Shown: one piece after another, positions 36,284 through 54,668 of the stretch
How the letters are laid out: the number at the start of each line of letters is the position of its first letter
Position numbering within the stretch: position 1 is the stretch's first letter
Source: Lysinibacillus sp. 2017
GTDB taxonomy: Bacteria; Bacillota; Bacilli; Bacillales_A; Planococcaceae
Reading direction: 5' to 3'
DNA length: 64,000 bases
NCBI RefSeq assembly: GCF_003073375.1
Contig: NZ_CP029002.1
Location: forward strand, 1,536,001 to 1,600,000
The notes under the pieces: generated by a model
Databases searched by the model: none
Told to the model about the DNA's origin: nothing
Seen by the model: only the letters and a program-made list of their open reading frames with translations
Program-made: the position numbers and the translations under genes

Positions 36284-36309
36284 TTTCTCCCTCCGTTACT
36301 TAATTTGCG

Positions 36310-36325
36310 TTAATGTTAACATTAA
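36310..36325. promoter_or_regulatory. LysR-type operator palindrome
   Basis: TTAATGTTAACATTAA is a perfect 16-bp palindrome in the divergent lysR-MFS promoter region. AGTTAATATTAC nearby is a weaker second site. Confidence 0.65.
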
Positions 36326-36396
36326 ATATACTAATTTTACATTAATAATAGTTAATATTACAATAAAGTAACAAAGCGAAAGAAAGGGTCTTTTAA

Positions 36397-37587: not shown

Positions 37588-37686
37588 ATCAAATTGTTCT
37601 TAGTTGAAAACCGTTAAACGGTATTCATTCATATATATAACTAAGATAATTCACTAAATGCTGCTGCTAAAAGCTTAGTGAACAAG

Positions 37687-37728
37687 AAAAGGCGTGTCCA
37701 GAAATCATATTTCGGACACGTCTTTTTT
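37687..37728 (+). terminator. Intrinsic terminator of MFS gene
   Basis: GGCGTGTCCAGAAA pairs with TTTCGGACACGTC (one bulge), followed by TTTTTT. Confidence 0.85.
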
Positions 37729-37867
37729 GTGGGACTTCTGATGAATTATTATAAATTTGTCTTTATATTTAATATTGCTGTAAAGGTGTTGTAACATTTA
37801 TTTGATATTATCATTCGTATAGGAAAATTTAAAACATAAAAATATTATAAAGATATAGAGGTTTTAT

Positions 37868-38863: not shown

Positions 38864-38872
38864 TATCTTTTT

Positions 38873-38914
38873 AAAGGTGCAAACACTGATATGACAGTGT
38901 TTGCACCTTTTTAA
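38873..38914 (+). terminator. Intrinsic terminator of the NlpC/P60 gene
   Basis: AAAGGTGCAAACACTG pairs perfectly with CAGTGTTTGCACCTTT around ATATGA, followed by TT. Confidence 0.92.
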
Positions 38915-39042
38915 TCGTGTAGCACTATATATAGCAGTTTGTGTTGGTTAAAGTTACCGACTGTCGCAATATACGTATTATTAATGTTCTTCAGCATGGA
39001 AACTATACAATTGGCTCCAGAAATGATGTCTTCTTTAGCCAT
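38911..39042 (-). CDS. Possible small ORF (43 aa), unknown
   Basis: ATG 39042 on the minus strand follows an AAGGAATAGATC RBS and encodes MAKEDIISGANCIVSMLKNI and about 23 more residues. The RBS is good but the frame ends inside the neighbouring terminator and no family is recognised. A hairpin AACCCTAT/ATAGGGTT (39055-39079) lies just upstream and would act as a terminator for plus-strand reading. Treat as tentative. Confidence 0.25.
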   Translation of the reverse strand: MAKEDIISGANCIVSMLKNINNTYIATVGNFNQHKLLYIVLHD

Positions 39043-39272
39043 GATCTATTCCTTAACCCTATGTATTTTGGATAGGGTTTTTTGTGATTTAAAAGCCAAC
39101 TATAAAGTGAGGTATGTAAATCTTATGTTTTATTAATCGTCTTTTGTCGGATTAAATCATATCAAGATGTTTTTTGTTTTATAAAGAAAATTTCAGTATA
39201 AGACATAATTAATTGAAATTTTTATATATTAGTAATATTCTAAAAATAGAAGTATATTAAATTTTCTGGAAA

Positions 39273-39985
39273 ATGGGTGAAATATTAAAGTTAAATTGTG
39301 CTTTAAAAGGAGTACATTATCAATTTAACTCTATAAAAGAAGTGCTAGCTAAGGCTAGTGAAGTGAAGTCTGGGGACATTTTAGCCGGAATTGCTGCTAT
39401 ACCTTCACTCGAACGAATGGCAGTAAAGATTGTCCTAAGTAAACTTATATTTAAAGGATATTTATGGGAAACCAGTCATACCATGTGAGAAGGATAATGT
39501 AACACGCATTATCTATGATGATGAAAACCTCTCAATCTATAACCAAATCAACATTGTAATCCTACGGTTGACTCTCTTGAATCCGTGAGGCGCATCTTGC
39601 AAATGACAGATGACTTTATGTAATATTGGCAAATTCCTACACAAAATTGTGTGTTTGCGCATATTACGACTCAAGTCCAAATTAATGCTGGCGCGTGTAT
39701 GGCTTCAAGAGGAAATTGCGAAAATCGTTCAAAGTAAAGTGACCATTCTATTAATAGGGGAGCGTCCAGGTCTTAATACAGCAGAGTCGATGAGCGCGTA
39801 TATCATTTACAAACCGAATGAAAAAACGGTTGAAGCGGATCGAACAGTCATTTCAAACATCCATGAAAATGGATTATCACCCAGTGAAGCAGGTGCTTAT
39901 TTATCAGAATTGATAGAGCAAATGCTGAAATTAGAATGTACAAGGGTAGCATTTATGCGCAAAAAAATAATGCAAACTAATGTGA
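39273..39985 (+). pseudogene. Decayed eutB-eutC copy (ethanolamine ammonia-lyase remnants)
   Basis: Four collinear pieces match the intact EutB and EutC encoded downstream: EutB N-terminus (VHYQFNSIKEVLAKASEVKS at 39309-39368, then GDILAGIAA), EutB about 62-85 (IPCEKDNVTRIIYDDE), EutB about 186-235 (NPTVDSLESVRRILQMTDDF, an in-frame stop, then WQIPTQNCVFAHITTQ), and the EutC C-terminus (LLIGERPGLNTAESMSAYII to 39985). Large internal deletions, frameshifts and stops are present. The pieces differ clearly from the intact copies, so this is not a recent duplication. Confidence 0.9.
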
Positions 39986-39998
39986 TGGGGGTACGTTC

Positions 39999-41234
39999 AT
40001 GGAGTTAATAGGTGTTGTGATTGTTTATATTATTATGGCTTGTGCGGTTGCTGGTGCATTTGCAGCCATAAAAGATCCTGATAATGGTTTGGGGAAAGAG
40101 TTTATGGGTGGGCTTCACGCGGTTGGTCATATTTTCGTACCAGCGGCAGGTATTATGGCGTCGATTCCATACTTAACAATTTTCATTGAAAAGGTAGTAA
40201 GCCCTGTCTTTCATAAAATCGGAGCAGACCCTGCACTTGCTGCTACAACGATTTTAGCATCAGACATGGGTGGTTATCAGTTAGCCAACGCATTAAAAGA
40301 TTCACAGGAAGGTTGGGTAATGGCATTAATCGTTGGTTTTATGGCAGGAGCAACCATCGTATTCTCTATTCCGATGGGGCTTGCCATGCTTGACAAGCGT
40401 GACCATAAATATATGGCGCTTGGCATTATGGCAGGTGTATTAACGATTCCGATTGGTGCATTTATTTCAGCAATTTCGATCTCATTATTTGATACAAAAG
40501 TTCGTGAAGTGATTGATACATCAGCTGAACCAATTTATACCTTTAGTATTTCTGTCGTCCAGATTCTCATAAACTTGGCGCCGCTCTTTGTGTTTGTTGT
40601 GCTTATTGCACTTGGACTAAAGTTCTTACCAAAAATGATGATCAATGGCTTTATGATTTTTGGTCGCGTCATGGATGCAGGAATCAAATTGGTCCTTGTA
40701 TTCTCGATTGTTGAGATTTTCACAGGTTTATTTACAACAATCTTTGGTGTATGGGGCTTTGACCCGATTATGGCAGATACGGAAGATCAATTTCGAGCCC
40801 TTGAAACAGCGGGATATATTGGGATTATGTTAGCAGGTGCGTTTCCGATGGTGTATTTAATTCGTAAATATTTCTCTAAACCACTTGAGGCAGTTGGTGG
40901 AAAAATTGGTTTATCAGCAGTTGGTAGTGCGGGATTACTCGCAACAATTGCGAACATTTTAGCGATGTTTACATTAGTTCGTTCAATGCCACCGAAAGAC
41001 AAGGTTATTAATATCGCGTTTGGTGTGTGTGCGGCGTTCCTATTAGGTGACCATTTATCGTTCACAGCAAACTTCCAGCCAACAATTATTTTACCTGTAA
41101 TTTTAGGGAAATTATTAGCTGGTGTTATCGCGATTTACTTCGCATATAAGTTATCAGTTCCAACTGCATTAAAGCTAGAACAAGAAGATCGTGCAGCTGG
41201 CATTATTAAAGAAGGCGAATACAAAGATGCATAA
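39999..41234 (+). CDS. eutH: Ethanolamine permease EutH
   Basis: The 411-residue membrane protein has about 10-11 helices and typical EutH sequence: AGAFAAIKDPDNGLGKEFMGGLHAVGHIFVPAAGIMASIPYL and DHLSFTANFQPTIILPVILGKLLAG. It admits ethanolamine into the cell. ATG 39999 has a GGGGG RBS and overlaps the tail of the decayed eutC remnant. It is the first intact gene of a 14-gene BMC operon with gaps of at most about 30 bp. Confidence 0.96.
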   Translation: MELIGVVIVYIIMACAVAGAFAAIKDPDNGLGKEFMGGLHAVGHIFVPAAGIMASIPYLTIFIEKVVSPVFHKIGADPALAATTILASDMGGYQLANALKDSQEGWVMALIVGFMAGATIVFSIPMGLAMLDKRDHKYMALGIMAGVLTIPIGAFISAISISLFDTKVREVIDTSAEPIYTFSISVVQILINLAPLFVFVVLIALGLKFLPKMMINGFMIFGRVMDAGIKLVLVFSIVEIFTGLFTTIFGVWGFDPIMADTEDQFRALETAGYIGIMLAGAFPMVYLIRKYFSKPLEAVGGKIGLSAVGSAGLLATIANILAMFTLVRSMPPKDKVINIAFGVCAAFLLGDHLSFTANFQPTIILPVILGKLLAGVIAIYFAYKLSVPTALKLEQEDRAAGIIKEGEYKDA

Positions 41235-41246
41235 GTAGGTGATGAA

Positions 41247-41588
41247 ATGGCCGAGGAAAAAAAGCGGTTTATTCAAGAGTTTGTTCCTGGTAAACAGCTT
41301 ACATTAAGTCATTTAATTGCAAACCCAGACAGCGAAATGCTGGAGAAATTGGGTATTCAACAATTAGGTGCTCTGGGGATAATGACATGTACACCGAGTG
41401 AAACAGTCATCATTGCGGGAGATTTAGCAACAAAAGCAGCCAATGTTCGAATCGGCTTTTTAGACCGTTTTACAGGTAGTTTAGTCATTATTGGCAGCGT
41501 TTCAGAAGTAGAAATGTCATTGATTGAAATTAATCGTTTTTTAGAGACAAATTTAGGATATACACCAGCAAATATCACAAAATCGTAG
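41247..41588 (+). CDS. eutS: BMC shell protein EutS
   Basis: The 113-residue circularly permuted BMC-H protein shows KRFIQEFVPGKQLTLSHLIANP and LGIMTCTPSETVIIAGDLATKAA, diagnostic of EutS/PduU. It forms a bent hexamer in the microcompartment shell. TAGGTGATGAA RBS. The stop is 10 bp before the eutP start. Confidence 0.96.
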   Translation: MAEEKKRFIQEFVPGKQLTLSHLIANPDSEMLEKLGIQQLGALGIMTCTPSETVIIAGDLATKAANVRIGFLDRFTGSLVIIGSVSEVEMSLIEINRFLETNLGYTPANITKS

Positions 41589-41597
41589 GTGATCACA

Positions 41598-42089
41598 ATG
41601 AATAAAGTGATGATTATTGGCGCAATCCGTGCTGGAAAATCAACATTAACAAAAGCCTTGTTGAATAAAGAACTTCATGCAGTGAAAACACAGGCACTAA
41701 ATTATGAAGGCTGGATTGTAGACACACCAGGTGAATATTTGGAAAACCCTATGTTTTATAAAAATATCATTGCGACATCGATGGAAGTATCACATTTGAT
41801 ATTTTTACAAGATGCTACCCGGAAAATCTCTAATTTTCCACCGCTTTTCGGCACAGGAATGTCAAAATTGCCGATTGGAGTTGTGACGAAAACGGATTTG
41901 CCGGAAGCTAATCCTGAACAAGCGGTGAAGTGGTTAAAACAAGTAATTGGAAAGGCACCAATTGTCATGACTTCAGCGGTTGAAGGAATTGGAATCGAAC
42001 ATGTGAGACAGCTTGTACAGTGCAATTCAATAGATGAAATGCGTGCGTATGTTGAACAAGCCAATGATCCATTGGTGTTCTTTTCCTGA
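41598..42089 (+). CDS. eutP: EutP/PduV-like small GTPase
   Basis: The 163-residue protein has a P-loop GAIRAGKST (residues 7-15), WIVDTPGEYLE (switch II DTPG) and VVTKTDLPEA (TKxD). EutP/PduV proteins are P-loop nucleotidases, some reported as acetate kinases, associated with BMC operons. ATG 41598 is preferred to GTG 41589 because AGGTGATCACA gives normal spacing. Confidence 0.93.
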   Translation: MNKVMIIGAIRAGKSTLTKALLNKELHAVKTQALNYEGWIVDTPGEYLENPMFYKNIIATSMEVSHLIFLQDATRKISNFPPLFGTGMSKLPIGVVTKTDLPEANPEQAVKWLKQVIGKAPIVMTSAVEGIGIEHVRQLVQCNSIDEMRAYVEQANDPLVFFS

Positions 42090-42101
42090 AGGAGGGAGCG
42101 C

Positions 42102-43532
42102 ATGTCAAAAAAGGTACAGTCACTCATTAGTGCAGGAATCGACATTGGTACGAGCACGACCAAAATTATTATTAGTCGACTTACGATTCAAAATACAGCA
42201 GGTCAAGCTCATGTTCCGCGCTTTGAAATTGTCGATAAAGAAGTACTCTACCAAAGCCCAATTTTTCGGACACCTTTACTAGATGATGTAACAATTGATG
42301 TAAAAAAAATTGAAGAAATTGTGTTTCAACAATACAAACAAGCCCAAATTGAGCCACAACAAATTCAAACTGGGGTCGTGCTTATAACGGGTGAAACGGC
42401 AACGAAAAAGAATGCGCGGGAACTGATTCATTTTATCTCGGATGCGGCGGGTGAATTTTTAGTAGCGACTGCTGGACCTGATTTGGAAAGTATTTTAGCT
42501 GCAAAGGGTTCTGGCGCCGTTGCTCATTCAAAAAAAACGAGCAAGGTTGTAGCGAATATCGATATCGGTGGTGGTACAACGAATATTGCGGTTTTAAAAC
42601 ATGGGGAAGTAATCGGTACAGTAACACTTCATCTAGGTGGTCGATTGATTGAATATGTACACAATCAAGTGATTAGTATGGCACCATCTATTCAACGATT
42701 ATTACAGCAAGCAAGTATTGACTATAAAATTGGGGATTCACGTGAGGTGCGCACGGAACAATTTATTATCCAACAAATGATCACTAGCCTAAATTATGTA
42801 CTCTGTGCAGAGCAACGAGCTGAAAAGATTCCATTACTATTAGGTCATGTGCCGAATTGGCAAGAACCCGTGCAAGTGATCAGTTTTTCAGGAGGGGTTG
42901 CCCATTGCATGTATCCACGTAGCGATGCCAATTGTGATACAGGAAGATTTGATGATTTAGGAAAGAAAATTGCAGAAGCACTAATGGCTGACGAAACGCT
43001 TGCCAAATTTGAATGGATAGAACCCGTTGAAACTGTGCGTGCAACCGTTACGGGAGCAGGTTCACAGTCAACAGATGTAAGTGGCGCAACGATTGAAGTT
43101 GATGCATCGGTTTTGCCTATTAAAAATGTGCCTGTATTAACTGTTGATTTTAATAAGCAATCAAATCAAATAATGCAGGCAATTGAAGCGAGTATGATTC
43201 AAGCAGTACAGCTGTTTGACACGGAAAATAGCGGTGAACCATTTGCGTTATATTTAAACAATTTGCCATATATGAATTTTGCAGATATCGATCAATTGGC
43301 CGAAAGCATTGCGACAAGTTGGCCAACTAAAAATGGAATTATACTCCTTATTTTAGAGGCTGATTATGCAAAAGTGCTCGGTCAAAGTTTATTACTACGA
43401 AAAGAAGGACGACAAATTGTTTGTATCGATCAAATTTTCGTACGAACAGGTGATTATATTGATATTGGCAATCCGCTTCAAGCAGGTGTTGTGCCAGTTG
43501 TCGTGAAAACTCTAGCATTTCATAAAGCATAA
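42102..43532 (+). CDS. eutA: Ethanolamine ammonia-lyase reactivase EutA
   Basis: The 476-residue protein is of the actin-like ATPase fold: AGIDIGTSTTKIIISRL (phosphate 1), NIDIGGGTTNIAVLKHGE (phosphate 2) and VISFSGGVAHCMYP. EutA removes inactivated cobalamin from EutBC at the expense of ATP. It lies immediately before eutBC. RBS GAAGGAGGGAGCGC. Confidence 0.96.
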   Translation: MSKKVQSLISAGIDIGTSTTKIIISRLTIQNTAGQAHVPRFEIVDKEVLYQSPIFRTPLLDDVTIDVKKIEEIVFQQYKQAQIEPQQIQTGVVLITGETATKKNARELIHFISDAAGEFLVATAGPDLESILAAKGSGAVAHSKKTSKVVANIDIGGGTTNIAVLKHGEVIGTVTLHLGGRLIEYVHNQVISMAPSIQRLLQQASIDYKIGDSREVRTEQFIIQQMITSLNYVLCAEQRAEKIPLLLGHVPNWQEPVQVISFSGGVAHCMYPRSDANCDTGRFDDLGKKIAEALMADETLAKFEWIEPVETVRATVTGAGSQSTDVSGATIEVDASVLPIKNVPVLTVDFNKQSNQIMQAIEASMIQAVQLFDTENSGEPFALYLNNLPYMNFADIDQLAESIATSWPTKNGIILLILEADYAKVLGQSLLLRKEGRQIVCIDQIFVRTGDYIDIGNPLQAGVVPVVVKTLAFHKA

Positions 43533-43543
43533 GGAGGTTGCGA

Positions 43544-44908
43544 ATGAACCTTTCAACAAATTTAGGTGGAATCGTCTATACCTTTCAAGATTTAAAAGAT
43601 TTATTGGCAAAAGCAAATGAATTGAAATCAGGCGATGAATTGGCTGGTATTGCTGCTGAAAATGTGCAGCAACGAGTAGCAGCAAAAGTAGTATTAGGTG
43701 ATATTCTCTTAAAAGATATTCGCAATAATCCACTCATTCCAATGGAAGAAGATGAAGTATCACGTTTACTTGATGGAGACATTAATGAAACGATTTATGG
43801 AGAAATTCAAAATTGGAGTGTTGCAGAATTACGCGAATATATTTTAAGCAGTCACGTGGATAATGCGGCATTGCGTCGTCTTGGAAAAGGTCTATCTTCT
43901 GAAATGATTGCAGCCGCAGCAAAATTAATGTCCAATATGGATTTAATCTATGCAGCGAATAAAATCGAAGTATTATCGACGTGTAATATTACAATCGGTC
44001 AAAAAGGAACATTATCATCTCGTCTACAGCCAAACCATCCTACAGATAATATTGACGGCATCATTGCGTCAATGAAGGAAGGCTTAGCATACGGTGTTGG
44101 TGATGCTGTCATCGGTATTAATCCCGTTGATGATTCAGTAGAAAGTGTAAAACGTGTATTGCACGCAACAAAGGATTTTATCAATGATTGGCAAGTACCC
44201 ACTCAAAACTGTGTACTCGCCCATGTAACAACACAGATGAAAGCCATTCGCCAAGGGGCACCTGCAGATATGATTTTCCAAAGTATTGCAGGTACTGAAA
44301 AAGCAAACCGTGCTTTCGGGATATCTGTAGATTTAATTAAGGAAGCTGCGCAACTTGTAAAAAAACAAGGAACAAGTGCAGGACCAAACCAGCTTTATTT
44401 TGAAACGGGACAAGGTTCTGAATTATCAGCAGAAGCACATCATAGCATCGACCAGTTGACATTAGAAGCCCGAAATTATGGCTTTGCACGTCATTTCAAT
44501 CCGTTTATCGTCAATACCGTTGTTGGATTTATTGGACCTGAATATTTATATGATAGCAAGCAAGTAATTCGCGCAGGGCTCGAGGATCATTTTATGGGAA
44601 AAATGCATGGGCTACCAATGGGTGTTGATATTTGTTATACGAATCATATAAAAGCTGACCAAAATGACAACGAAAATTTAGGCGTACTTTTAGCGGCAGC
44701 GGGTGTGAACTTTGTGATTGCTGCACCAATGGGCGACGATGTCATGTTAAACTATCAATCTTTAAGTTACCATGATGTGCCGACCTTGCAAGAAATGATG
44801 CAAAAACGACCTGCACGTGAGTTTGAAGTATGGCTTGAAAAAATGGGCATTATGGAAAATGGTCGTCTAACAAGCAAAGCAGGCGACTTAACGATTTTTG
44901 AGAAGTAG
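43544..44908 (+). CDS. eutB: Ethanolamine ammonia-lyase large subunit EutB
   Basis: The 454-residue protein (normal family length) is the catalytic, substrate-binding TIM-barrel subunit. Conserved segments include KSGDELAGIAAENVQQRVAAK, LSTCNITIGQKGTLSSRLQP, CVLAHVTTQMKAIRQGAPAD and MDICYTNHIKADQND-like VDICYTNHIKADQND. With EutC and adenosylcobalamin it converts ethanolamine to acetaldehyde and ammonia. ATG 43544 is chosen over TTG 43538 for AAGGAGG spacing. Confidence 0.97.
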   Translation: MNLSTNLGGIVYTFQDLKDLLAKANELKSGDELAGIAAENVQQRVAAKVVLGDILLKDIRNNPLIPMEEDEVSRLLDGDINETIYGEIQNWSVAELREYILSSHVDNAALRRLGKGLSSEMIAAAAKLMSNMDLIYAANKIEVLSTCNITIGQKGTLSSRLQPNHPTDNIDGIIASMKEGLAYGVGDAVIGINPVDDSVESVKRVLHATKDFINDWQVPTQNCVLAHVTTQMKAIRQGAPADMIFQSIAGTEKANRAFGISVDLIKEAAQLVKKQGTSAGPNQLYFETGQGSELSAEAHHSIDQLTLEARNYGFARHFNPFIVNTVVGFIGPEYLYDSKQVIRAGLEDHFMGKMHGLPMGVDICYTNHIKADQNDNENLGVLLAAAGVNFVIAAPMGDDVMLNYQSLSYHDVPTLQEMMQKRPAREFEVWLEKMGIMENGRLTSKAGDLTIFEK

Positions 44909-44916
44909 GTGATGAA

Positions 44917-45828
44917 GTGGATCGAGAGTTAGTCGAAATGATTACGAAGCTAGTCACAGAAAAGCTTGTCCAACAACAATTAACAGAACGTAAACAACCT
45001 GAACAACACGTGCAAGCAGCAACTATTCAGCTATTTAATCATCCAGCACCGAATTCGAGTGCACAGCAAAAACAACAAGTAAATCAACAAGCTGATGCGA
45101 AAAAATTTGAAGAGGTAATTGATGAAAAATTTATGCATTTTCGCACACAAACACCAGCGCGTATTGGTGTAGGTAGAAGTGGGCCAAGGCCTTTAACGAA
45201 CACGATGTTAAAGTTCCGCTTTGATCATGCAGCAGCAGTAGATACGGTTTATGGGGAAGTTGAACAAGCCCTTCTACAAAAATTGCAGCTATTCACAATT
45301 GGAACAAAGGCAGAAGAAGATAAAGAAACATATATTTTAAGACCTGATTACGGACGAAAATTATCCGATGAAGCCAAAAAAACATTACTAGAAAAATGTC
45401 AAAAAAACGCGAAGGTCCAAATTATCGTATCAAATGGTCTAAGCGCGGAAGCAATTAATGCCAACCTAGAAAATGTGTATTTATCATTGCAACAAAGCTT
45501 ACAAAGTCTAGGCTATCAGACGGGAACACCGTTTTATATTGAGCAAGGGCGTGTTGGTTTGATGGATGATATTGGGGAGTTATTACAACCCGAAGTAATC
45601 GTCTATTTAATTGGTGAACGTCCAGGGCTCGTATCAGCAGAATCTATGAGTGCGTACATTTGCTACAAGCCGCGTAAAGACACGATTGAATCGGATCGTA
45701 CTGTCGTTTCAAATATTCATAAAGGCGGAATTCCACCTGTGGAAGCAGGCGCATTTTTAGGGAATATCGTTCAAAAAATATTGAAATACGAAGCGAGTGG
45801 TGTCAATTTAGTGCAAAAAGAAGAATAG
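44917..45828 (+). CDS. eutC: Ethanolamine ammonia-lyase small subunit EutC
   Basis: The 303-residue protein binds adenosylcobalamin with EutB. It shows RTQTPARIGVGRSGPRPLTNTMLKFRFDHAAAVDTV and VYLIGERPGLVSAESMSAYICYKP. The first 20 residues (DRELVEMITKLVTEKLVQQQ) form an amphipathic helix of the encapsulation-peptide type, separated by a Gln-rich linker of about 60 residues. GTG 44917 behind TAGGTGATGAA. Confidence 0.97.
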   Translation: MDRELVEMITKLVTEKLVQQQLTERKQPEQHVQAATIQLFNHPAPNSSAQQKQQVNQQADAKKFEEVIDEKFMHFRTQTPARIGVGRSGPRPLTNTMLKFRFDHAAAVDTVYGEVEQALLQKLQLFTIGTKAEEDKETYILRPDYGRKLSDEAKKTLLEKCQKNAKVQIIVSNGLSAEAINANLENVYLSLQQSLQSLGYQTGTPFYIEQGRVGLMDDIGELLQPEVIVYLIGERPGLVSAESMSAYICYKPRKDTIESDRTVVSNIHKGGIPPVEAGAFLGNIVQKILKYEASGVNLVQKEE

Positions 45829-45839
45829 GAGGCTAATGA

Positions 45840-46487
45840 ATGACGAATAAATTGTTTGCCGATATTTTAGCGATGCAAATCATTCCGAGAGTCAGTAGCC
45901 AGTTAGCACAGCAATTGCAATTAGCCGATTGGCATCAAAGTATAGGGATTGTTACGTTAACAATCGATGACGTAGGCTACACCGCTATCGATGAAGCAAC
46001 GAAAAAAGCAGATGTTGAAGTCGTTTACGCAAAAAGTTTTTATGCAGGCGCGGCTCATGCGTCTGGACCATTATCAGGTGAAATGATTGGTATTTTAGCT
46101 GGCTCCTCGCCTGATGAAATACGTAGTGCATTTGATGCAATCGAGCAAAAGGTGCAATACGATGCGTTTTTTGAAGAAATAGGCGAAGGACATGCCCTTT
46201 ATGCACATACCGTTTCCAGCTGTGGCAGTTATTTAGCTGAAACAGCGGGTGTTCCAGTTGGTTCAGCTTTAGCGTACTTAATTGCTCCGCCGCTAGAAGC
46301 AATTGTGGGGTTAGACGCTGCGTTAAAGGCTGCCGATGTTGAGCTGAAAGTATTTTTTGGTCCACCGTCTGAAACAAACTTCGGTGGTGGGTTATTAAGC
46401 GGATCCCAATCATCTTGTAAAGCAGCAGCGGATGCATTTCGTGAATCTATCGAGCGAATTGCACAAAATCCAATTGATGCATCATAA
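45840..46487 (+). CDS. eutL: BMC-T shell protein EutL
   Basis: The 215-residue tandem-domain shell protein shows VVYAKSFYAGAAHASGPLSGEMIGILAGSSPDE and GPPSETNFGGGLLSGSQSSCKAAADAF. EutL trimers have gated pores thought to pass large substrates such as cofactors. AGGAGGCTAATGA RBS. Confidence 0.96.
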   Translation: MTNKLFADILAMQIIPRVSSQLAQQLQLADWHQSIGIVTLTIDDVGYTAIDEATKKADVEVVYAKSFYAGAAHASGPLSGEMIGILAGSSPDEIRSAFDAIEQKVQYDAFFEEIGEGHALYAHTVSSCGSYLAETAGVPVGSALAYLIAPPLEAIVGLDAALKAADVELKVFFGPPSETNFGGGLLSGSQSSCKAAADAFRESIERIAQNPIDAS

Positions 46488-46499
46488 GGAGGTGACAGG

Positions 46500-47990
46500 A
46501 TGATTCAGTTATTTGAAAACGGACAATCGACTGATGCAATCGATGAAGTTGATCACAAGGTGAAACTTGCATTTGAGGCACAGCTACAATATGCCAAGTT
46601 CACCCAACAACAAGTTGATAAAATTGTGAAGGCTATTGCAGAGGTAACCTATGAAAAGTCGGAATATTTAGCGAGATTGGCAGTTGAAGAAACTGGAATG
46701 GGTGTTGTCGCACATAAAAAAATGAAAAATGAAGTCGGATCAAAGGCGGTTTATGAAGACATTAAAGACTTGAAAACAGTCGGTATCATTAATGAAAACC
46801 GTATGAAAAAAGTTATTGAAATTGCAGCGCCCTATGGGGTTGTTGCAGCAATTATTCCGACAACAAATCCAACATCTACTGCCATTTTTAAAGTGCTCAT
46901 TTCATTAAAAACGCGCAATGCTATCGTTGTAAGCCCACATCCTTATGCAGTGAGCTGTACAAAAGCCGCGCTCGATATTTGTGAAGAGGCTGCTGTAAAA
47001 GCAGGTGCTCCAGCAGGGTTAATTCAATGCTTAACACAAAAATCAATGGAAGCTACAGAAGCTCTTATGAAGCATCCAAATACACATGTCATTTTAGCGA
47101 CAGGTGGCGGTGGGTTAGTTCGTGCAGCGTATAGTTCTGGAAAGCCTGCTTACGGGGTTGGACCTGGAAATGTTCCAGTTTATGTTGAGAAATCGGCTAA
47201 ACTCGATATCGCATTAAGACATATCGTGGAAAGTAAAAGCTTTGATTATGGAACGATTTGTGCCACAGAACAAGCATTAATCGTGGATGAAGTTATTTAT
47301 GAAAAGACTGTTGAAAAGCTGAAAAAGCTAGGGGCTTACTTTTTATCGGATGCAGAAAAACAAAAGATGGAGAAAGTAATCTCTCCTGAAGTGGGGAAAG
47401 TGAATCCCAAAATCGTTGGCCGATCTCCACAAACGATTGCGAAACTAGCAGGAATTCAAATTCCAAAAGAAACGAAAATCATTGTAGGCATCGAAACGAA
47501 AATTGGAAAAGAGATTCCTTTCTCTTTAGAAAAGCTTTCACCAGTTTTAGCGCTTTATAAAGTACAAAATAGTGATGAAGCGAAAGATACGTGCTTGCAA
47601 TTACTAAATATTGGTGGGCGCGGACATACATTATCCATTCATACGGAGAACGATAAAATCGCTAGAACCTTTGCATTTGAATTACCAGTTTCCCGAATTG
47701 TGGTTAATACGATGGCTACGATGGGTGCCGTTGGTGGTACGACGAATTTGCGTCCATCGTTTACATTAGGTTGCGGTACATTTGGCGGAAATATTACGTC
47801 GGATAATGTATCAGCACAGCATTTATTATTAACTAAACGTATGAGTTATGGTGTGAAAGAAGTGAAAGTACCGGCACCTCCAGTTGAGGAAAGTGTCGAT
47901 ATTGAATCGATTGTACAACAACAAGCAGGTTCAATTGATGAACAGCTTGTTGCAAAAATTGTGGAAGAAGTACTAAAACAACTTAAATAA
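46500..47990 (+). CDS. eutE: Acylating acetaldehyde dehydrogenase EutE
   Basis: The 496-residue CoA-dependent aldehyde dehydrogenase contains [48 protein letters not shown] and the active-site Cys in [13 protein letters not shown] (about residue 256). It makes acetyl-CoA and NADH from acetaldehyde. The final residues ([20 protein letters not shown]) form an amphipathic helix after a loose linker, resembling a C-terminal encapsulation peptide. RBS AAGGAGGTGACAGG. Confidence 0.96.
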
Positions 47991-48005
47991 TTGGAGGAAT
48001 TAACT

Positions 48006-48293
48006 ATGAATCGTGAAGGAACAGCTTTAGGAATGGTAGAAACAAAAGGGCTAGTAGGAGCAATTGAGGCAGCGGACTCTATGGTTAAAGCAGCGAGTGT
48101 TAATCTTGTTGGTAAAGTACATGTAGGTGGCGGGATCGTAACAGTATTAGTCCGTGGGGATGTAGGTGCAGTAAAGGCAGCTACAGATGCGGGTGCAGCT
48201 GCGGCAGAACGTGTTGGAGAATTATTATCTGTTCATGTAATTCCGCGTCCACACAATGAATTAGAATTGATTTTACCAAAATTAGAGCTATAA
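48006..48293 (+). CDS. eutM: BMC-H shell protein EutM
   Basis: The 95-residue canonical BMC-H protein shows [45 protein letters not shown] and VHVIPRPH. It is the main hexameric tile of the shell. ATG 48006 follows TGGAGGAATTAACT and is preferred to TTG 47991. Confidence 0.97.
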
Positions 48294-48318
48294 TCCGCAC
48301 ACAAAGGGGATGTAGAGG

Positions 48319-48915
48319 ATGACAAATCTCGATACGCAAGTCCCAATTGCTGTATCTGCTCGTCATGTTCATTTAACCGAAGCACATATTGCCATCCTAT
48401 TTGGGCCAGGAGCTACATTAACGAATGATTTTGATTTATCACAGCCAGGACAATTTGCAGCCGCAGAACGCGTAACGATTCGTGGACCAAAAGGACAAAT
48501 TGAAAAAGTACGTGTACTAGGACCTGCTCGCATTGCTTCTCAAGTTGAAGTGAGTAGAACGGATAGCTTTGTACTTGGTGTCAACCCACCAATTCGTCAA
48601 TCAGGTGATATTAGTGGGAGTGAGCCAATCACATTAATTGGTCCAGCAGGAGAAGTTGCAATTGAAGAAGGCTGCATAATAGCAAAAGCACATATTCATA
48701 TGCATCCAGATGACGCAAGCCAATTTCAAGTTACGGATGGTGAACTTGTTGATGTAATTGTCGATTCAGATCGACCAATAACATTTCATAATATCATCAT
48801 TCGAGTATCTGAAAGCTTTAAACTCGACATGCATATTGATACGGATGAAGGCAACGCAAGTAATTTAATTCGAGGCTTTGGCACAGTAGTTAAGCTAATT
48901 AAGGAGGCGATTTAA
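48319..48915 (+). CDS. pduL: Phosphotransacylase PduL, copy 1, no encapsulation peptide
   Basis: The 198-residue PduL-type phosphate acetyltransferase has the metal-binding SARHVHLTEAHI and AHIHMHPDDA histidine clusters and two GPARIASQVEVSRTD / GDISGSEPITLIGPAG repeat blocks. The protein starts only about 10 residues before the first conserved segment (MTNLDTQVPIAVSARHVHL), so the usual N-terminal encapsulation helix is missing. It probably acts in the cytosol or binds through a partner. AAGGGG RBS. It overlaps the second pduL by 1 bp. Confidence 0.93.
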   Translation: MTNLDTQVPIAVSARHVHLTEAHIAILFGPGATLTNDFDLSQPGQFAAAERVTIRGPKGQIEKVRVLGPARIASQVEVSRTDSFVLGVNPPIRQSGDISGSEPITLIGPAGEVAIEEGCIIAKAHIHMHPDDASQFQVTDGELVDVIVDSDRPITFHNIIIRVSESFKLDMHIDTDEGNASNLIRGFGTVVKLIKEAI

Positions 48916-49775
48916 TGAATGATCAATTGATTAGTTCAATCGTCGATGAGGTATTAGCGAAAATTCATGGAGCCCATTATAATTCACCAGGCAAATTTTC
49001 GATTGGAATTTCTGCTCGCCATGTCCATTTAAGCGAAGAACATGTGCATTTGTTATTTGGAGAGGGCTATGAATTGAAACCAAAGTCACCATTATCACAG
49101 CCAGGACAGTTTGCAGCGGAAGAACAAGTCACCATTGTTGGTAATAAGGGGTCGATTCATCAAGTTCGCGTGTTGGGCCCAGCACGCAAGCTGACTCAAG
49201 TAGAAGTGAGTGCAACCGATGCACGACAATTAGGTATCCAAGTACCACTTCGCTTTTCTGGAGATACGGCTGGTTCCGCACCTATTACTATTGTTGGACC
49301 TAAAGGTAGTATTTATTTACAAGAAGGCTGTATTATTGCTGCGGCACATATTCATATGTCTGTTGAAGATGCCCACTCTTTTGGTGTTACAGATGGACAA
49401 TTTGTCAATGTACGTGTGTTGTCACAACGACCTCTAATTTTTAATCATGTAAAAATACGTGTATCCGAGCGTTTTAAATTAGAAATGCATGTTGACACAG
49501 ACGAAGGCAATGCGGCGATGATTTCTGTAAATGATGTTGGAGAAATTGTAACGGACGAACCAGTTCAGCAAATGCCAATGTTACAACCAACACCAAGTTA
49601 TACGCAAACACATGCTAACTCAATTCCGACAGGATTCAACAAAAAACTTGTAACGGAAAAAGATGTAGCGGATTGGACTGGAACTGAAATGGTAGTAAAT
49701 CCAAAAACAATCATTACAGCACTGGCATATGATCAAGCTCGTAAACGAGGAATCAAAATAGTTCGGCAAAAATAA
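48915..49775 (+). CDS. pduL: Phosphotransacylase PduL, copy 2, with encapsulation helix and C-terminal tail
   Basis: The 286-residue protein starts with an amphipathic helix MNDQLISSIVDEVLAKIHG (typical BMC encapsulation peptide), then a short linker and the PduL core (SARHVHLSEEHVHLLFG, AAHIHMSVEDAHSFG). It continues about 70 residues beyond the core: a Pro/Gln/Thr-rich linker and a small domain (LVTEKDVADWTGTEMVVNPK, then TIITALAYDQARKRGIKIV) like tails seen in some BMC-operon proteins. It regenerates CoA inside the compartment by making acetyl phosphate. Confidence 0.93.
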   Translation: MNDQLISSIVDEVLAKIHGAHYNSPGKFSIGISARHVHLSEEHVHLLFGEGYELKPKSPLSQPGQFAAEEQVTIVGNKGSIHQVRVLGPARKLTQVEVSATDARQLGIQVPLRFSGDTAGSAPITIVGPKGSIYLQEGCIIAAAHIHMSVEDAHSFGVTDGQFVNVRVLSQRPLIFNHVKIRVSERFKLEMHVDTDEGNAAMISVNDVGEIVTDEPVQQMPMLQPTPSYTQTHANSIPTGFNKKLVTEKDVADWTGTEMVVNPKTIITALAYDQARKRGIKIVRQK

Positions 49776-49792
49776 AGTAGGTGATGATGGAA

Positions 49793-50074
49793 ATGATGAT
49801 GGCTCGAGTAATCGGCAATGTATGGGCAACAAGAAAAGAAGAAAACTTAAACGGCTTGAAGCTATTAATCGTTCAACCCATTGATTCAAAAAATCAGCCG
49901 ATTCGTCATGAATTAGTTGTAGCAGATCGTATCGGCGCAGGGATTGGTGATGAGGTACTCGTTACAAATGGTGGTGCAGCTCGCTATATTTTAACAGACA
50001 ACCCTCTCCCCATTGATGCAGTAGTTATCGGTATTATTGATTCGACAGAGGTGCGAGGTGATAAAAATGAGTAA
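49793..50074 (+). CDS. eutN: BMC-P shell vertex protein EutN
   Basis: The 93-residue pentameric vertex protein (EutN/CcmL family) shows ARVIGNVWATRKEENLNGLKLLIVQPID, VVADRIGAGIGDEVLVTNGGAARYI and DAVVIGIID. It closes the 12 shell vertices. Several in-frame ATGs exist; 49793 fits the AGGTGATGATGG RBS. The stop overlaps the next gene by 8 bp. Confidence 0.95.
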   Translation: MMMARVIGNVWATRKEENLNGLKLLIVQPIDSKNQPIRHELVVADRIGAGIGDEVLVTNGGAARYILTDNPLPIDAVVIGIIDSTEVRGDKNE

Positions 50075-50405
50075 AGCAATGGGCATGATTGAAACAAAGG
50101 GGTTAGTCGGTTCAATTGAAGCAGCAGATGCAATGGTGAAAGCAGCGAATGTTGAAATTCTAAAACAAGAAATGATTGATGGTGGTATCGTTACAGTATT
50201 TATTACTGGAGATGTAGGCGCTGTGCAAGCAGCAGTTGATGCAGGGAGAGAAGCAGCGGCACGTGTGGGTGAATTACTTGCCGCACATGTAATTCCTCGA
50301 CCAGATGAAGAAGTAGCGAAATTATTTGAGAAAAAAGTTCCGAAGCATACACCAAAGCGAACTGCGCCAAAAGCGACACAGCCGAAAAGTGTAAGTGAGG
50401 AGTGA
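50067..50405 (+). CDS. BMC-H shell protein with basic C-terminal tail
   Basis: The 112-residue protein has a canonical BMC-H domain (AMGMIETKGLVGSIEAADAM, GGIVTVFITGDVGAVQAAVDAG, HVIPRPDEEV). A roughly 22-residue Lys/Pro/Thr-rich tail (KKVPKHTPKRTAPKATQPK) follows. The tail could face the lumen or the cytosol and bind nucleic acid, a cofactor or a partner, in the manner of EutK or PduK tails, although no folded domain is visible. ATG 50067 has GAGGTGATAAAA. Confidence 0.93.
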   Translation: MSKAMGMIETKGLVGSIEAADAMVKAANVEILKQEMIDGGIVTVFITGDVGAVQAAVDAGREAAARVGELLAAHVIPRPDEEVAKLFEKKVPKHTPKRTAPKATQPKSVSEE

Positions 50406-50409
50406 AAGC

Positions 50410-51354
50410 ATGGGTTTTAAAAAACATAAAATCGTAATTGTAGGCGCAGGAAATACCGGAATGACCGCTGCACTTTATTTAGCACAAAAGCAATTGGGTG
50501 ATATTGTGCTGATCGATATTCCTGAAGTGGCAAAGCCAACAGCAGGCAAGGCACTTGATTTACTACAAGCTGGTCCCATTGAAAATTTTAATGTCAATGT
50601 AATGGGTACCGATCAATACGCAGAAATGGAAGGGGCTAGTTTAGTCATTGTGACAGCTGGCTTCCCACGTAAACCTGGTATGAGTCGTAATGATTTAGTC
50701 AAAACGAATGCGAACATTATGAAAAACGTCGCGCAAAATATAAAAAAATATGCACCTGACAGTATTGTCCTTGTTTTGAGCAATCCAGTCGATGCAATGA
50801 CCTATGTTTGCCTAAAGGAAACAGGTTTCGAACCGCATCGTGTCATTGGACAGTCTGGCGTCCTTGATGCAGCTCGCTTTAACACATTTGTGGCACAGGA
50901 ATTAGGCATTGGTGTAGAAGATGTTTCTAGTTTTGTGTTAGGTGGTCACGGCGATGAAATGGTCCCTTTAATTCGTTATTCATACGTAGGTGGCATCCCA
51001 GTCGAAAAAGTGATTGCACCGAATCGCTTAGAAAAAATTGTTGAACGCACACGTAAAGGTGGAGGAGAAATTGTCGCTTTACTAGGTAATGGAAGTGCCT
51101 ATTACGCTCCTGCCGCCGCAACTGTAAAAATGGCCGAAACAATTATTCGCGATCAAAAAAGAATCATCCCAAGTGTTGCTTATCTACAAGGGCAATACGG
51201 TTACAATGATATTTGCCTAGGTGTTCCGACGATTTTAGGAGGGAACGGTATTGAAAATATCGTGCAACTTGATTTAGAAGAAGCTGAAAAAGAGGCATTA
51301 GCAGTTTCGGCAAATGTCGTGAAGGAAATGGTGGATTTTTGTAAGACATTATAA
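50410..51354 (+). CDS. mdh: Malate dehydrogenase (LDH/MDH family) in the eut operon
   Basis: The 314-residue protein shows the Rossmann loop VIVGAGNTGMTAAL (residues 7-20), TAGFPRKPGMSRNDLVKTNA (about 79-98, with Arg82 of the RKPGMSR loop typical of malate specificity) and the catalytic His in LGGHGDEMVP (about 177). It interconverts malate/oxaloacetate with NAD. It has no obvious encapsulation helix. GAGGAG RBS, 4 bp after the shell gene. It occupies the operon end, where an alcohol dehydrogenase would be expected, and may reoxidise NADH. Confidence 0.92.
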   Translation: MGFKKHKIVIVGAGNTGMTAALYLAQKQLGDIVLIDIPEVAKPTAGKALDLLQAGPIENFNVNVMGTDQYAEMEGASLVIVTAGFPRKPGMSRNDLVKTNANIMKNVAQNIKKYAPDSIVLVLSNPVDAMTYVCLKETGFEPHRVIGQSGVLDAARFNTFVAQELGIGVEDVSSFVLGGHGDEMVPLIRYSYVGGIPVEKVIAPNRLEKIVERTRKGGGEIVALLGNGSAYYAPAAATVKMAETIIRDQKRIIPSVAYLQGQYGYNDICLGVPTILGGNGIENIVQLDLEEAEKEALAVSANVVKEMVDFCKTL

Positions 51355-51370
51355 TTGAGATTATTAAAGC

Positions 51371-51408
51371 AGGTTGGTTTTCATGTAACATGGAAACCAA
51401 CCTTTTTA
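51371..51408 (+). terminator. Intrinsic terminator of the eut operon
   Basis: GGTTGGTTTTCATG pairs with CATGGAAACCAACC (one mismatch) around TAA, followed by TTTTTAT. Confidence 0.9.
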
Positions 51409-51502
51409 TAATTTTAAAGTGAAAATTTAATCATTTGATAAAACGAATTAAATAGTAGATATATACTTGTCATTTATAGATGAAAAAAATAATCCTACAC
51501 GC

Positions 51503-51532
51503 TTTACATACCTTGAGGGGGTATGTTAGTAT
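51503..51532 (+). promoter_or_regulatory. csoR promoter with CsoR operator in the spacer
   Basis: TTTACA (51503-51508) and TAGTAT (51527-51532) are 18 bp apart. The palindrome with arms ACATACC (51506-51512) and GGTATGT (51520-51526) fills the spacer, as expected for copper-relieved repression. Confidence 0.8.
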
Positions 51533-51556
51533 GGGGTGTATTAGGAGGTTGATCTA

Positions 51557-51889
51557 ATGGAAAATGAAGTAAATGATGTCGCCTGCCATACAGAAGATAG
51601 TGCCTCTTGTAGAAAAAGTCATCATTCTGAACGTATCAAAAAAGATATGACGACAAGATTAAATCGAATTGAGGGTCAAATTCGTGGGATAAAAGGTATG
51701 ATTGAGAAAGATGTCTATTGCGATGATGTTATTACGCAGCTTTCTGCTACTCAATCTGCATTAAATAGTGTTGCTAAGATTTTATTAGAAGGCCATTTAA
51801 AAGGCTGTGTTGTGGATCGACTTTCAGAAGGCGATGATGAAGTACTTGATGAATTACTTGTAACAATACAAAAGCTTATGAAAAAATAA
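51557..51889 (+). CDS. csoR: Copper-sensing repressor CsoR
   Basis: The 110-residue CsoR-family protein has core RLNRIEGQIRGIKGMIEKDVYCDDVITQLSATQSALNSVAKILLEGHLKGCVV. The Cys of YCDDV, the His of EGHLK and the Cys of KGCVV form the C-H-C Cu(I) site that separates it from the CstR-like paralogue at 14231. An N-terminal Cys/His-rich extension (VACHTEDSASCRKSHH) may add metal ligands. RBS TAGGAGGTTGATCTA. Confidence 0.95.
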   Translation: MENEVNDVACHTEDSASCRKSHHSERIKKDMTTRLNRIEGQIRGIKGMIEKDVYCDDVITQLSATQSALNSVAKILLEGHLKGCVVDRLSEGDDEVLDELLVTIQKLMKK

Positions 51890-51902
51890 TTTTTTTAACA
51901 AT

Positions 51903-51925
51903 TATATACCCCAGTGGTGTATATA
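51903..51925 (+). promoter_or_regulatory. CsoR-type operator upstream of copZ
   Basis: Arms TATATAC (51903-51909) and GTATATA (51919-51925) flank CCCAGTGGT. Confidence 0.75.
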
Positions 51926-51963
51926 AAATAAATAATCATTCATATTAAGGGAGAGAATCAATT

Positions 51964-52170
51964 ATGCAAAACGTTACATTAAATGTTCAAGGAATGTCAT
52001 GTGGTCACTGTGTGAAAGCAGTAGAGAGTGGCGTAAACGAATTACAAGGTATTAATGAAGTATCAGTAAACTTAGAAGATGCAAAAGTAACAGTGGCTTT
52101 TAATGAAGCTCAAGTGTCAGTTGAAGCAATCAAAGAAGCCATTGAAGAACAAGGCTACGATGTAAAATAA
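51964..52170 (+). CDS. copZ: Copper chaperone CopZ
   Basis: The 68-residue HMA protein has the Cu(I) site GMSCGHCVKAVE (Cys12 and Cys15 region) and NLEDAKVTVAF. It carries Cu(I) to CopA and exchanges copper with CsoR. GGGAGAGAATCAATT RBS. Confidence 0.96.
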   Translation: MQNVTLNVQGMSCGHCVKAVESGVNELQGINEVSVNLEDAKVTVAFNEAQVSVEAIKEAIEEQGYDVK

Positions 52171-52213
52171 TTGAGTAGAGTGCTGTTATAGGCACTCTCT
52201 TATTTTTATTGAA

Positions 52214-52234
52214 ATATACCCCCATACGGTATAT
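52214..52234 (+). promoter_or_regulatory. CsoR-type operator upstream of copA
   Basis: Arms ATATACC and GGTATAT flank CCCATAC, ending just before the copA RBS. Confidence 0.75.
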
Positions 52235-52250
52235 GGAGGAGGGACGCTCA

Positions 52251-54668
52251 ATGACTGTAAAAGAAAAAAATACAACCATTCAAATAACAGGTATGACATG
52301 TGCCGCCTGTTCAGCACGTATTGAAAAAGCACTCAATAAAATGGAGGGTGTCGACCAAGCAACAGTTAACTTGGCACTTGAAAAGTCATCGATAAAATAT
52401 GATGCAACGAGATTAACAGAAAATGATTTCGAGAAAAAAATTGAAGCGCTCGGTTACGGTGTCATCAAACAAAAAGCAGAATTAGATATTACAGGCATGA
52501 CATGTGCTGCCTGTTCAGCACGAATTGAAAAAGGTTTAAATAGAATGGATGGTATTTCTACTGCCAATGTCAACTTAGCATTAGAAAAGGCAACGATTGA
52601 ATTTAATCCAGCGCAAGTGTCAGTTGCTGATGTCATTGCTAAAGTAGAAAAGCTTGGATATGGTGCGCATCAAAAACAGGATGAAAAAGATCAAGTCGAT
52701 TATCGCGAAAAAGCGATTCAACAACAAAAATGGAAATTCATCATGTCAGCCATTTTATCATTACCATTACTTTGGACGATGGTAGCCCATTTTTCATTTA
52801 CATCGTTTTTATATGTTCCTGATTTTCTAATGAACCCATGGGTACAACTAATTTTAGCAACACCCGTTCAATTTATAATCGGCCGACAATTTTATGAAGG
52901 TGCCTATAAAGCACTTCGTAATGGTTCAGCAAATATGGATGTTCTTGTAGTCATGGGTACTTCAGCGGCTTACTTTTATAGTGTGTATCAAATGATTGTG
53001 ATGAATGGCTCACATCACGCACCACATTTATATTTTGAAACAAGTGCAGTCCTGATTACACTCATTCTTTTAGGAAAACTATTTGAAGCAAAAGCAAAAG
53101 GTCGTTCATCAGAGGCGATTAAAAAATTAATGGGACTTCAAGTGAAAACAGCGATCATTCTTCGTGATAGCGTTGAAGTGGAAGTACCTTTAGAAGAAGT
53201 AGCAATTGGCAACATTCTGTTCGTGAAACCAGGTGAAAAAATCCCAGTTGATGGTGAGATGCTAGAAGGTCAAACAGCTGTTGATGAATCCATGCTAACA
53301 GGTGAAAGCTTACCCTTAGATAAAAAAATGGGTGACGTTCTTTATGGTTCAACAATTAACAAAAACGGTTTCATTAAAATGAAAGCGACAAAAGTTGGTC
53401 GTGATACAGCGCTTGCACAAATTATTAAAGTAGTAGAAGATGCGCAAGGCTCTAAAGCGCCAATTCAACGTTTAGCCGATAAAATTTCGGGGATATTTGT
53501 TCCAATTGTTGTAGGGATTGCGGTATTAACGTTTATCGTTTGGATAGTATGGATTGATCCAGGTAACTTTACGCAAGCACTTGAAGTGTTAATTGCGGTT
53601 TTAGTCATTGCTTGTCCGTGTGCACTTGGTTTAGCAACACCAACTTCAATTATGGCTGGTAGTGGACGTGCTGCGGAATTTGGAATTTTGTTTAAAGGTG
53701 GCGAACACCTAGAACAAACGCAAGCCATTGATACAGTGGTCGTCGATAAAACAGGGACGGTTACACATGGTAAACCTGTGTTAACAGATGTAATTGTTGC
53801 GCAAGGGATAGAAGAAGAAAATTTTCTAGCACTTCTTGGTGCAGCAGAGAAACAATCGGAACATCCATTAGCGCAAGCAATTGTTCAAGGGATTGAGGAC
53901 AAAGGCATAGAGCTTGGAACTGTTCAATTTTTTGAATCGATTCCTGGCTACGGTGTGCAGTCTACTGTATCCGGACAAGGCGTCATTATTGGTACACGTA
54001 AATTAATGCAACAATTCAATATTGATATTACAAATGAGTTACCTCAAATGGAACAATTAGAATCGGATGGTAAAACAGCGATGTTAGCTGCGATTAATGG
54101 GAAATTTGCAGGATTAGTAGCAGTTGCTGATACGATTAAAGAAACATCAAAGCAAGCAATCGAGCGTCTTCAACAAATGGGTATTGAAGTCATTATGATG
54201 ACAGGTGACAATGTTCGTGCTGCACAAGCCATTGGTAAAGAAGTCGGTGTAAATGCTGTTATCGCAGAAGTATTACCGGAAGGAAAGGCTGAAGAAGTGA
54301 AAAAACTTCAAACGCAAGGTAGAAATGTGGCAATGGTTGGTGATGGTATTAATGATGCGCCAGCTCTTGCAACAGCGAATGTCGGTATGGCGATAGGTAC
54401 GGGAACAGATGTTGCAATGGAAGCTGCGGACATTACATTAATTCGTGGCGATTTAAACAGTATTGCCGATGCCATTGTAATGAGCCGTAAAACAATGCGT
54501 AATATTAAACAAAACCTATTCTGGGCATTTGCCTATAATGCAATAGGGATTCCAATTGCAGCATCCGGCTTCCTGGCTCCTTGGGTCGCAGGTGCAGCAA
54601 TGGCATTTAGTTCCGTATCCGTTGTATTAAATGCCCTACGATTACAAAAAGTAAAACTAAATAAATGA
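52251..54668 (+). CDS. copA: Copper-exporting P1B-ATPase CopA
   Basis: The 805-residue ATPase has two N-terminal HMA domains (both [13 protein letters not shown]), eight membrane helices with the ion motif [10 protein letters not shown] (helix 6), the actuator loop TGES and the phosphorylation motif [20 protein letters not shown] (nucleotide-binding His) and [11 protein letters not shown] follow. It exports Cu(I). ATG 52251 with ATGGAGGAGGG is the true start; an upstream TTG frame would overlap the operator. Confidence 0.97.

Follow-up and report, generated by a model that had tools for sequence, protein, structure and literature searches.

Many Firmicutes eut loci encode no alcohol dehydrogenase, which raises the question of how such a metabolosome recycles its private NAD+. 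In the general scheme (PMC6620236), an EutG-type enzyme spends acetaldehyde and makes ethanol. A sequence-only reading of the locus described here took it as usual that a eut locus pairs EutE with EutG. This premise calls for correction, since among Firmicutes EUT loci only EUT2A encodes EutG, as stated by Axen et al. 2014 (PMC4207490), and the absence of EutG is ordinary in such loci. The locus lies in a 64,000-nucleotide stretch of Lysinibacillus sp. 2017 (the window; contig NZ_CP029002.1, positions 1,536,001 to 1,600,000), where the final gene of the eut operon encodes a malate dehydrogenase (MDH). The question is what this enzyme does at the end of a microcompartment operon.

Organization of the locus

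The plus strand of the window carries a complete eut microcompartment operon that runs from eutH (39999) through mdh (51354). Its first gene, eutH (39999..41234; NF011668, 690 bits), encodes an ethanolamine transporter-type protein and is followed by a BMC shell gene that is eutS by position (41247..41588; PF00936, 40 bits), by the GTPase gene eutP (41589..42089; PF10662 PduV-EutP, 124.5 bits) and by eutA for the reactivating factor (42102..43532; PF06277, 529 bits). The large subunit of ethanolamine ammonia-lyase is encoded by eutB (43538..44908; PF06751, 700 bits), and the product of eutC (44917..45828; PF05985, 266 bits) has an EP-like N-terminus with the EP motif. Downstream lie the trimer shell gene eutL (45840..46487; TIGR04502, 329.5 bits at C1:1581849-1582478) and eutE (46500..47990; PF00171), whose product is an acylating acetaldehyde dehydrogenase that makes NADH. 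The score of EutE against TIGR02518, 596 bits, is slightly below the cut-off of 620, and its EP-like C-terminus has the EP motif at residue 483. The hexamer shell gene eutM (47991..48293; PF00936, 94 bits) encodes a protein 88-96% identical to its counterparts in the eut-BMC loci of the family (Planococcaceae). Two copies of a gene for a PduL-type phosphotransacylase follow (48319..48915, PF06130, 253 bits; 48915..49775, PF06130, with an EP-like N-terminus), then a eutN/CcmL-type pentamer shell gene (49781..50074; PF03319, 110 bits) and a second EutM-like BMC hexamer shell gene (50067..50405; PF00936, 101 bits). From eutH up to mdh, the genes all match eut, BMC shell, aldehyde dehydrogenase or PduL families. 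No alcohol dehydrogenase is among the operon genes, all of which are assigned, as the sequence-only reading had noted, and no Fe-ADH match was found anywhere in the window.

The operon has the make-up of an EUT2-type BMC locus, with eutABC including the reactivase, EutE as the aldehyde dehydrogenase, shell genes, and a PduL-type phosphotransacylase instead of the Pta-type EutD. It differs from the EUT2-type loci of PMC4207490 in having mdh and in having no EutG, the gene by which subtype EUT2A is told, and a two-component regulator was not recognised beside it. In that account nearly half of the EUT2 loci are without the complete core, and a two-component regulator, found in 87% of them, is usual and not defining. 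A reading by eye of the ORFs that flank the window operon picked out no two-component, eutT or eutQ gene, and an Rfam search of window positions 36000-53000 gave nothing at gathering scores. In one relative (L057 3599-5600), a EutV/EutW-like pair, consisting of a PdtaS-type histidine kinase and an ANTAR response regulator, is located upstream of eutH.

Directly 5' of eutH, positions 39273-40008 hold remnants of a second eutB-eutC pair, namely about the first 61 codons of eutB, another fragment of eutB that contains a stop, and the sequence for the C-terminal portion of EutC. A genome of the same genus (G164) has both eutB and eutC full-length at the equivalent place (L041 5297-7512). The C-terminal tail of the second PduL (48915-49775) is PduM/TIGR02536-like; its tail matches to TIGR04493 and TIGR02536 are weak and below the cut-offs. 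Separate ORFs at L249 6954-7676 and L261 5723-6436 have tails that resemble this one by eye, and the former ORF has no Pfam match.

The mdh gene and its product

The mdh gene (50410..51354, plus strand) is intact, with an ATG at 50410 and a stop that ends at 51354, and its product has 314 amino acid residues. The product matches the NCBIfam malate dehydrogenase model TIGR01763 at 446.6 bits, above the curated cut-off of 351.85, and also matches Pfam Ldh_1_N and Ldh_1_C. The closest solved structures are the malate dehydrogenases 7by8, 7x1l, 7f8d and 3tl2, and the specificity loop, GFPRKPGMSRNDL, contains Arg, in agreement with the identity first assigned to the gene. The shell gene upstream has its stop at 50405, which leaves the gap of 4 bp noted before, and a ribosome-binding-like GAGGAG overlaps the 3' end of that shell gene. 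Judging from this spacing, mdh is probably co-transcribed with the shell genes. Directly after mdh there is a terminator-like hairpin (51371..51403, plus strand) of 15 pairs with a T-run; it is the longest among 11 terminator-like matches, a count that shuffled sequence yields similarly (mean 9.7).

D36, R87, M91, R93, N125, D153, R156 and H180 are kept in 90/90 eut-linked MDH rows (among them the two distant sequences described below and some duplicate records) and in all 86 other rows. In this enzyme family such residues are established marks of NAD and oxaloacetate use; D36, R87, R93, D153, R156 and H180 make up the NAD-type Asp, the arginines of the specificity loop and the catalytic His/Asp/Arg. 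By sequence, the eut-linked enzyme is a genuine NAD-type malate dehydrogenase.

The genome consists of a single 3.74-Mb contig, and an Ldh_1_N search of it gave two genes, the eut-linked mdh and the second mdh beside icd and citZ that the sequence-only reading had suggested looking for. Their products are 57% identical. Compared with its eut counterparts elsewhere in the family, the eut MDH of the window is 63-72% identical to those from other genera and 79% identical to that of G164, which is of the same genus; since it is closer to the eut MDHs of other genera than to the housekeeping copy, the eut mdh is not a recent copy of the housekeeping mdh. The genome also has one malate:quinone oxidoreductase (MQO) gene and, outside the window, four Fe-ADH-type matches, one of them below the cut-off. 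A co-regulated eutG-type partner elsewhere in the genome had been named as a result that would count against a special role of mdh, and none came to light. With eut and shell queries, no match was found around the four Fe-ADH genes (about 6 kb on each side for three of them and about 1.5 kb for the weak one), a result that covers the Fe-ADH type and linkage within these distances.

Occurrence in Planococcaceae

EutB was found in 72 of the 261 genomes of the family and EutL, which we used as the marker of a microcompartment-type eut locus, in 71. All 71 EutL loci were examined, that of the window included and that of G055 via record L126 (own coordinates of this genome: EutL C1:2129975, MDH C1:2134613). 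In each of them the last shell gene is followed by an MDH gene, with a median gap of 11 bp (range -4 to 222), a place that mdh keeps throughout the 8 EutL-bearing genera of the family; in some of these loci the housekeeping MDH scored better as query than the eut MDH. The expected conservation of mdh at this place in related eut loci was thus found, and because of it chance linkage is excluded and the linkage of mdh to the eut operon is confirmed as real. Fe-ADH queries matched none of the 71 loci within the stretches seen, and the same queries matched nine other loci at 31-37% identity.

With a threshold of E 1e-100, TIGR01763 matched two or more times in 68 of the 71 EutL genomes versus 2 of the 190 genomes without EutL, a contrast to which a Fisher test was applied; 171 of these 190 have one match and 17 have none. 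Fourteen other eutB stretches (L042, L045-L056 and L059, which are the second eutBC type and G147) gave no MDH match, and two of them, L045 and L050, do contain a shell-gene match.

Of the 261 genomes of the family, 257 have an MQO match, and that of the window is among them. The match is present in 70 of the 71 EutL genomes; the exception, G041, has the eut operon. Three EutL genomes, G043, G166 and G218, have MQO, and no TIGR01763-grade MDH was found in them besides the eut-linked one (two of the three assemblies consist of several contigs, and the completeness of G218 is rated at 95%), so that the malate step of the TCA cycle can there be left to MQO.

Occurrence in other Bacilli and beyond

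An even sample of 398 genomes of the class gave 52 EutL matches outside the family, spread over 48 genomes; one of the matches is a contig-end fragment. A TIGR01763-grade MDH is located downstream of EutL, on the same strand and within 14 kb, in 24 of these 52 loci. The distance is 4.2-6.3 kb in seven loci from six family-level groups (f19, f21, f27, f29, f30 and f32) and 11.6-12.3 kb in 17 loci of f22, and mdh is linked to eut in 7 family-level groups beyond that of the window. The position in the operon varies: mdh is directly after eutC in the f22 record L130 (Brevibacillus sp. SYP-B805), whereas it is beyond the shell genes in most carriers, and in L240 eutN and mdh are separated by a permease-like ORF. 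That mdh ends the operon everywhere was considered and rejected, as eutS lies 3' of mdh in L261 and a same-strand ORF of at least 80 aa starts within 60 bp after the mdh stop in 4/71 family loci (within 150 bp in 11/71).

Of the 52 class loci, 36 were analysed for both kinds of dehydrogenase; 13 have a linked MDH and no Fe-ADH, 9 have an Fe-ADH and no linked MDH, and 14 have neither. Seven of these 14 belong to f11, three to f22/g40, and one each to f28, f37, f22/g62 and f22/g124; the f22 stretches end before the place of mdh, the absence of Fe-ADH there covers the stretch seen, and G281 is perhaps cut by the contig end. Because of these 14 loci, a dedicated sink in the locus would seem not to be compulsory, or to be of another kind. 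An EutG-type Fe-ADH and mdh together occur in no examined locus (0/71 in the family, 0/13 of the MDH-linked loci outside it and 0/9 of the Fe-ADH loci).

Beyond the class, 28 genomes in a phylum sample of 398 have EutL. A TIGR01763-grade MDH is on the EutL contig in 0/28 and is absent genome-wide in 25/28. Among the 80 named loci listed, at least seven are eut-linked mdh loci, and they include those of Lysinibacillus sphaericus OT4b.31, Bacillus aerolatus, Cytobacillus oceanisediminis 13_TX and Neobacillus rhizophilus.

Phylogeny

For the MDH tree, 90 of 176 rows were chosen. The eut MDHs of the family share one region of the tree with those of several other Bacilli groups, the Brevibacillus eut MDHs are placed beside Brevibacillus housekeeping MDHs, and the eut MDHs of f21 and f30 are far away. 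A tree in which all eut-linked MDHs descend from one recruitment was rejected (AU p=2.6e-7), a rejection forced by two rows, L240 and L261, which are both long branches flagged by the tree program. The main clade and Brevibacillus as one origin was not rejected (p=0.40) in a comparison that omitted L280, L281, L123 and L286, four rows with a housekeeping label whose place in the tree is inside or beside the eut clade. Because one common origin is rejected and this grouping is not, the eut mdh appears to have been recruited at least twice; we claim two origins, not three.

The MDHs of L123 (9001-9939, Tetzosporium hominis), L280 and L281 group with or beside the eut MDHs in the tree, yet their genes are located away from EutL loci, as judged by neighbouring ORFs for L123 and by position for L280 and L281.

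Protein termini

With the nearest start codon chosen by script, the eut MDHs of the family start 9 residues before the glycine-motif pattern in 69/69 parsed rows, and their C-terminal tail is 2 residues longer at the median (32 vs 30). A cysteine is present in the last 12 residues of 67 of the 69 parsed rows versus 1 of 45 parsed Bacillota housekeeping rows. By its printed tail, this lone housekeeping row is L123, which is placed in the eut part of the tree. Outside the family, 1 of 17 parsed eut MDH rows has the cysteine. The motif parse failed for 36 of the 176 rows, which are left out of these counts. In the window, the C-terminus carrying the cysteine region corresponds to about 51335-51351.

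The motif used here for the terminal, amphipathic encapsulation peptide (EP) is our own regular expression, drawn from the termini of EutC, EutE and the second PduL of the window. EutC carries it among its first 40 residues in 90 of 114 loci, a number that takes in loci without EutL, and EutE carries it among its last 40 residues in 89 of 111. The motif is not specific, because it is also seen near the C-terminus of EutA in 47 of 111 loci. It was found at MDH termini in 0/84 loci and in EutG-type Fe-ADHs in 0/9. Encapsulation was dropped as a direct argument, since the EutG-type control gave no motif either and the test does not discriminate; it is neutral on the location of MDH.

Discussion

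We propose that MDH replaces EutG as the NADH sink of this microcompartment, by a malate/oxaloacetate shuttle across the shell in which MQO re-oxidises malate, and we think this reading slightly more probable than its negation. EutE would turn acetaldehyde into acetyl-CoA with one NADH per acetaldehyde, and MDH would consume this NADH in reducing oxaloacetate to malate. Malate would then leave the compartment, and the membrane enzyme MQO or the TCA-cycle MDH would turn it back into oxaloacetate. The electrons would thus reach the respiratory chain via quinone, and no acetaldehyde would be lost as ethanol. The reduction of oxaloacetate runs strongly downhill, and the low level of this compound in cells could limit its use as a luminal acceptor.

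The linkage in all 71 family loci and its conservation, the enzyme type with its conserved residues, the second TIGR01763 match in most EutL genomes, the wide presence of MQO, the non-overlap of MDH and EutG-type genes and the two or more origins count for the sink. Against it count the lack of an EP motif in MDH, although EutG-type Fe-ADHs lack it too, the 14 class loci with neither dehydrogenase, the scarcity of oxaloacetate and the genome G041 with its missing MQO match. The direction of the reaction, a location of MDH in or at the shell and the crossing of the shell by malate and oxaloacetate are inferred. The pattern of G043, G166 and G218 fits a sink with MQO closing the loop and fits a plain TCA role equally well.

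Such a TCA role would make MDH a cytosolic, extra, substrate-induced enzyme that oxidises malate to oxaloacetate for ethanolamine-derived acetyl-CoA and is merely co-regulated with the organelle. That the protein carries no terminal encapsulation motif, that its checked catalytic positions are identical to those of housekeeping MDH and that it is the only TIGR01763-grade MDH found in three genomes all agree with this explanation. We nevertheless consider it rather unlikely, as the window operon contains no other TCA gene and the usual citZ-icd-mdh is present, as MQO is already able to cover the malate step in nearly all family genomes, and as MDH never shares an examined locus with an EutG-type Fe-ADH, which is itself an NADH sink. 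The enzyme might instead have drifted to another compartment substrate, either another 2-oxoacid or an aldehyde; the divergence of the eut copy from the housekeeping copy in this genome and the C-terminal cysteine of the family eut MDHs, missing from nearly all parsed housekeeping copies, would suit such a change. With all eight catalytic and specificity positions as in housekeeping MDHs in every eut-linked row and a score exceeding the TIGR01763 equivalog cut-off, drift is very improbable. A further explanation is a passenger gene, caught in the operon and inherited without a compartment-specific role. In its favour, one ancestral event would account for all 71 family loci, and some MDHs that group with or beside the eut MDHs are encoded away from EutL loci (L123, L280 and L281). 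Its retention in every EutL genus of the family, the linkage in other family-level groups, the more than one operon position and the two or more origins make this very improbable as well.

The proposed sink has counterparts in known systems. An EutG-type iron alcohol dehydrogenase has the same role as NADH sink and lacks the EP motif in all nine loci as MDH does; it belongs to an unrelated family (PF00465 type). In work on Corynebacterium glutamicum, the couple of MDH and malate:quinone oxidoreductase is reportedly a route from NADH to quinone. Both enzymes are encoded in the genome of the window, and to our knowledge this couple has not been tied to a microcompartment. In PVM loci, a gene with lactate/malate dehydrogenase domains is predicted to supply the AlcDH function and regenerate NAD+ (PMC4207490, on Erbilgin et al. 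2014). The PVM microcompartment (L-fucose/rhamnose; Planctomycetes and Verrucomicrobia) resembles the window operon in that a lactate/malate dehydrogenase is predicted to take the place of the alcohol dehydrogenase in an aerobic pathway, and differs in its signature enzyme and phylum, the window enzyme being clearly of the malate-dehydrogenase type (TIGR01763). A lactate/malate dehydrogenase as NAD+ recycler is therefore already known as a prediction, and the eut mdh is a variant of such an arrangement. No mention of mdh in EUT loci was found in main-text passages of PMC4207490, and Sutter et al. 2021 (PMC8217296) use no word beginning with "malate" in their main text. A literature search found no report of mdh in eut operons; it covered texts outside the supplementary locus diagrams, where a prior tabulation is possible.

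The sequence-only interpretation as a whole is partly supported. The linkage and the enzyme type that it named stand; to its suggestion of a different NADH sink it must be added that a lactate/malate dehydrogenase in such a role had already been proposed for PVM, and the redox role keeps the conditional form it had in that reading. A conserved mdh that was apparently recruited at least twice and is not seen beside EutG is a concrete candidate NADH sink, and, if the proposal is true, an organelle of the ethanolamine type is tied to aerobic respiration. A bolder reading, which we hold to be less likely than not, is that aerobic Bacilli have more than once turned the ethanolamine organelle into a respiratory unit comparable to a mitochondrion. 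In it, a luminal MDH would send reducing equivalents from NADH out across the shell in the form of malate, for use by membrane MQO, the shell pores would pass C4 dicarboxylates, and ethanolamine would be fully oxidised without the acetaldehyde dismutation by which metabolosomes are classically defined.

A separate observation came from a protein search of plasmids, in which 98 records matched. Two records from the best 10 of these 98 were examined. One carries no annotation; the other, L303 (NZ_CP015439.1) from Anoxybacillus amylolyticus, holds a relocated citZ-icd-mdh together with pfkA, pyk, dnaE and polA on 258 kb and is labelled a plasmid.
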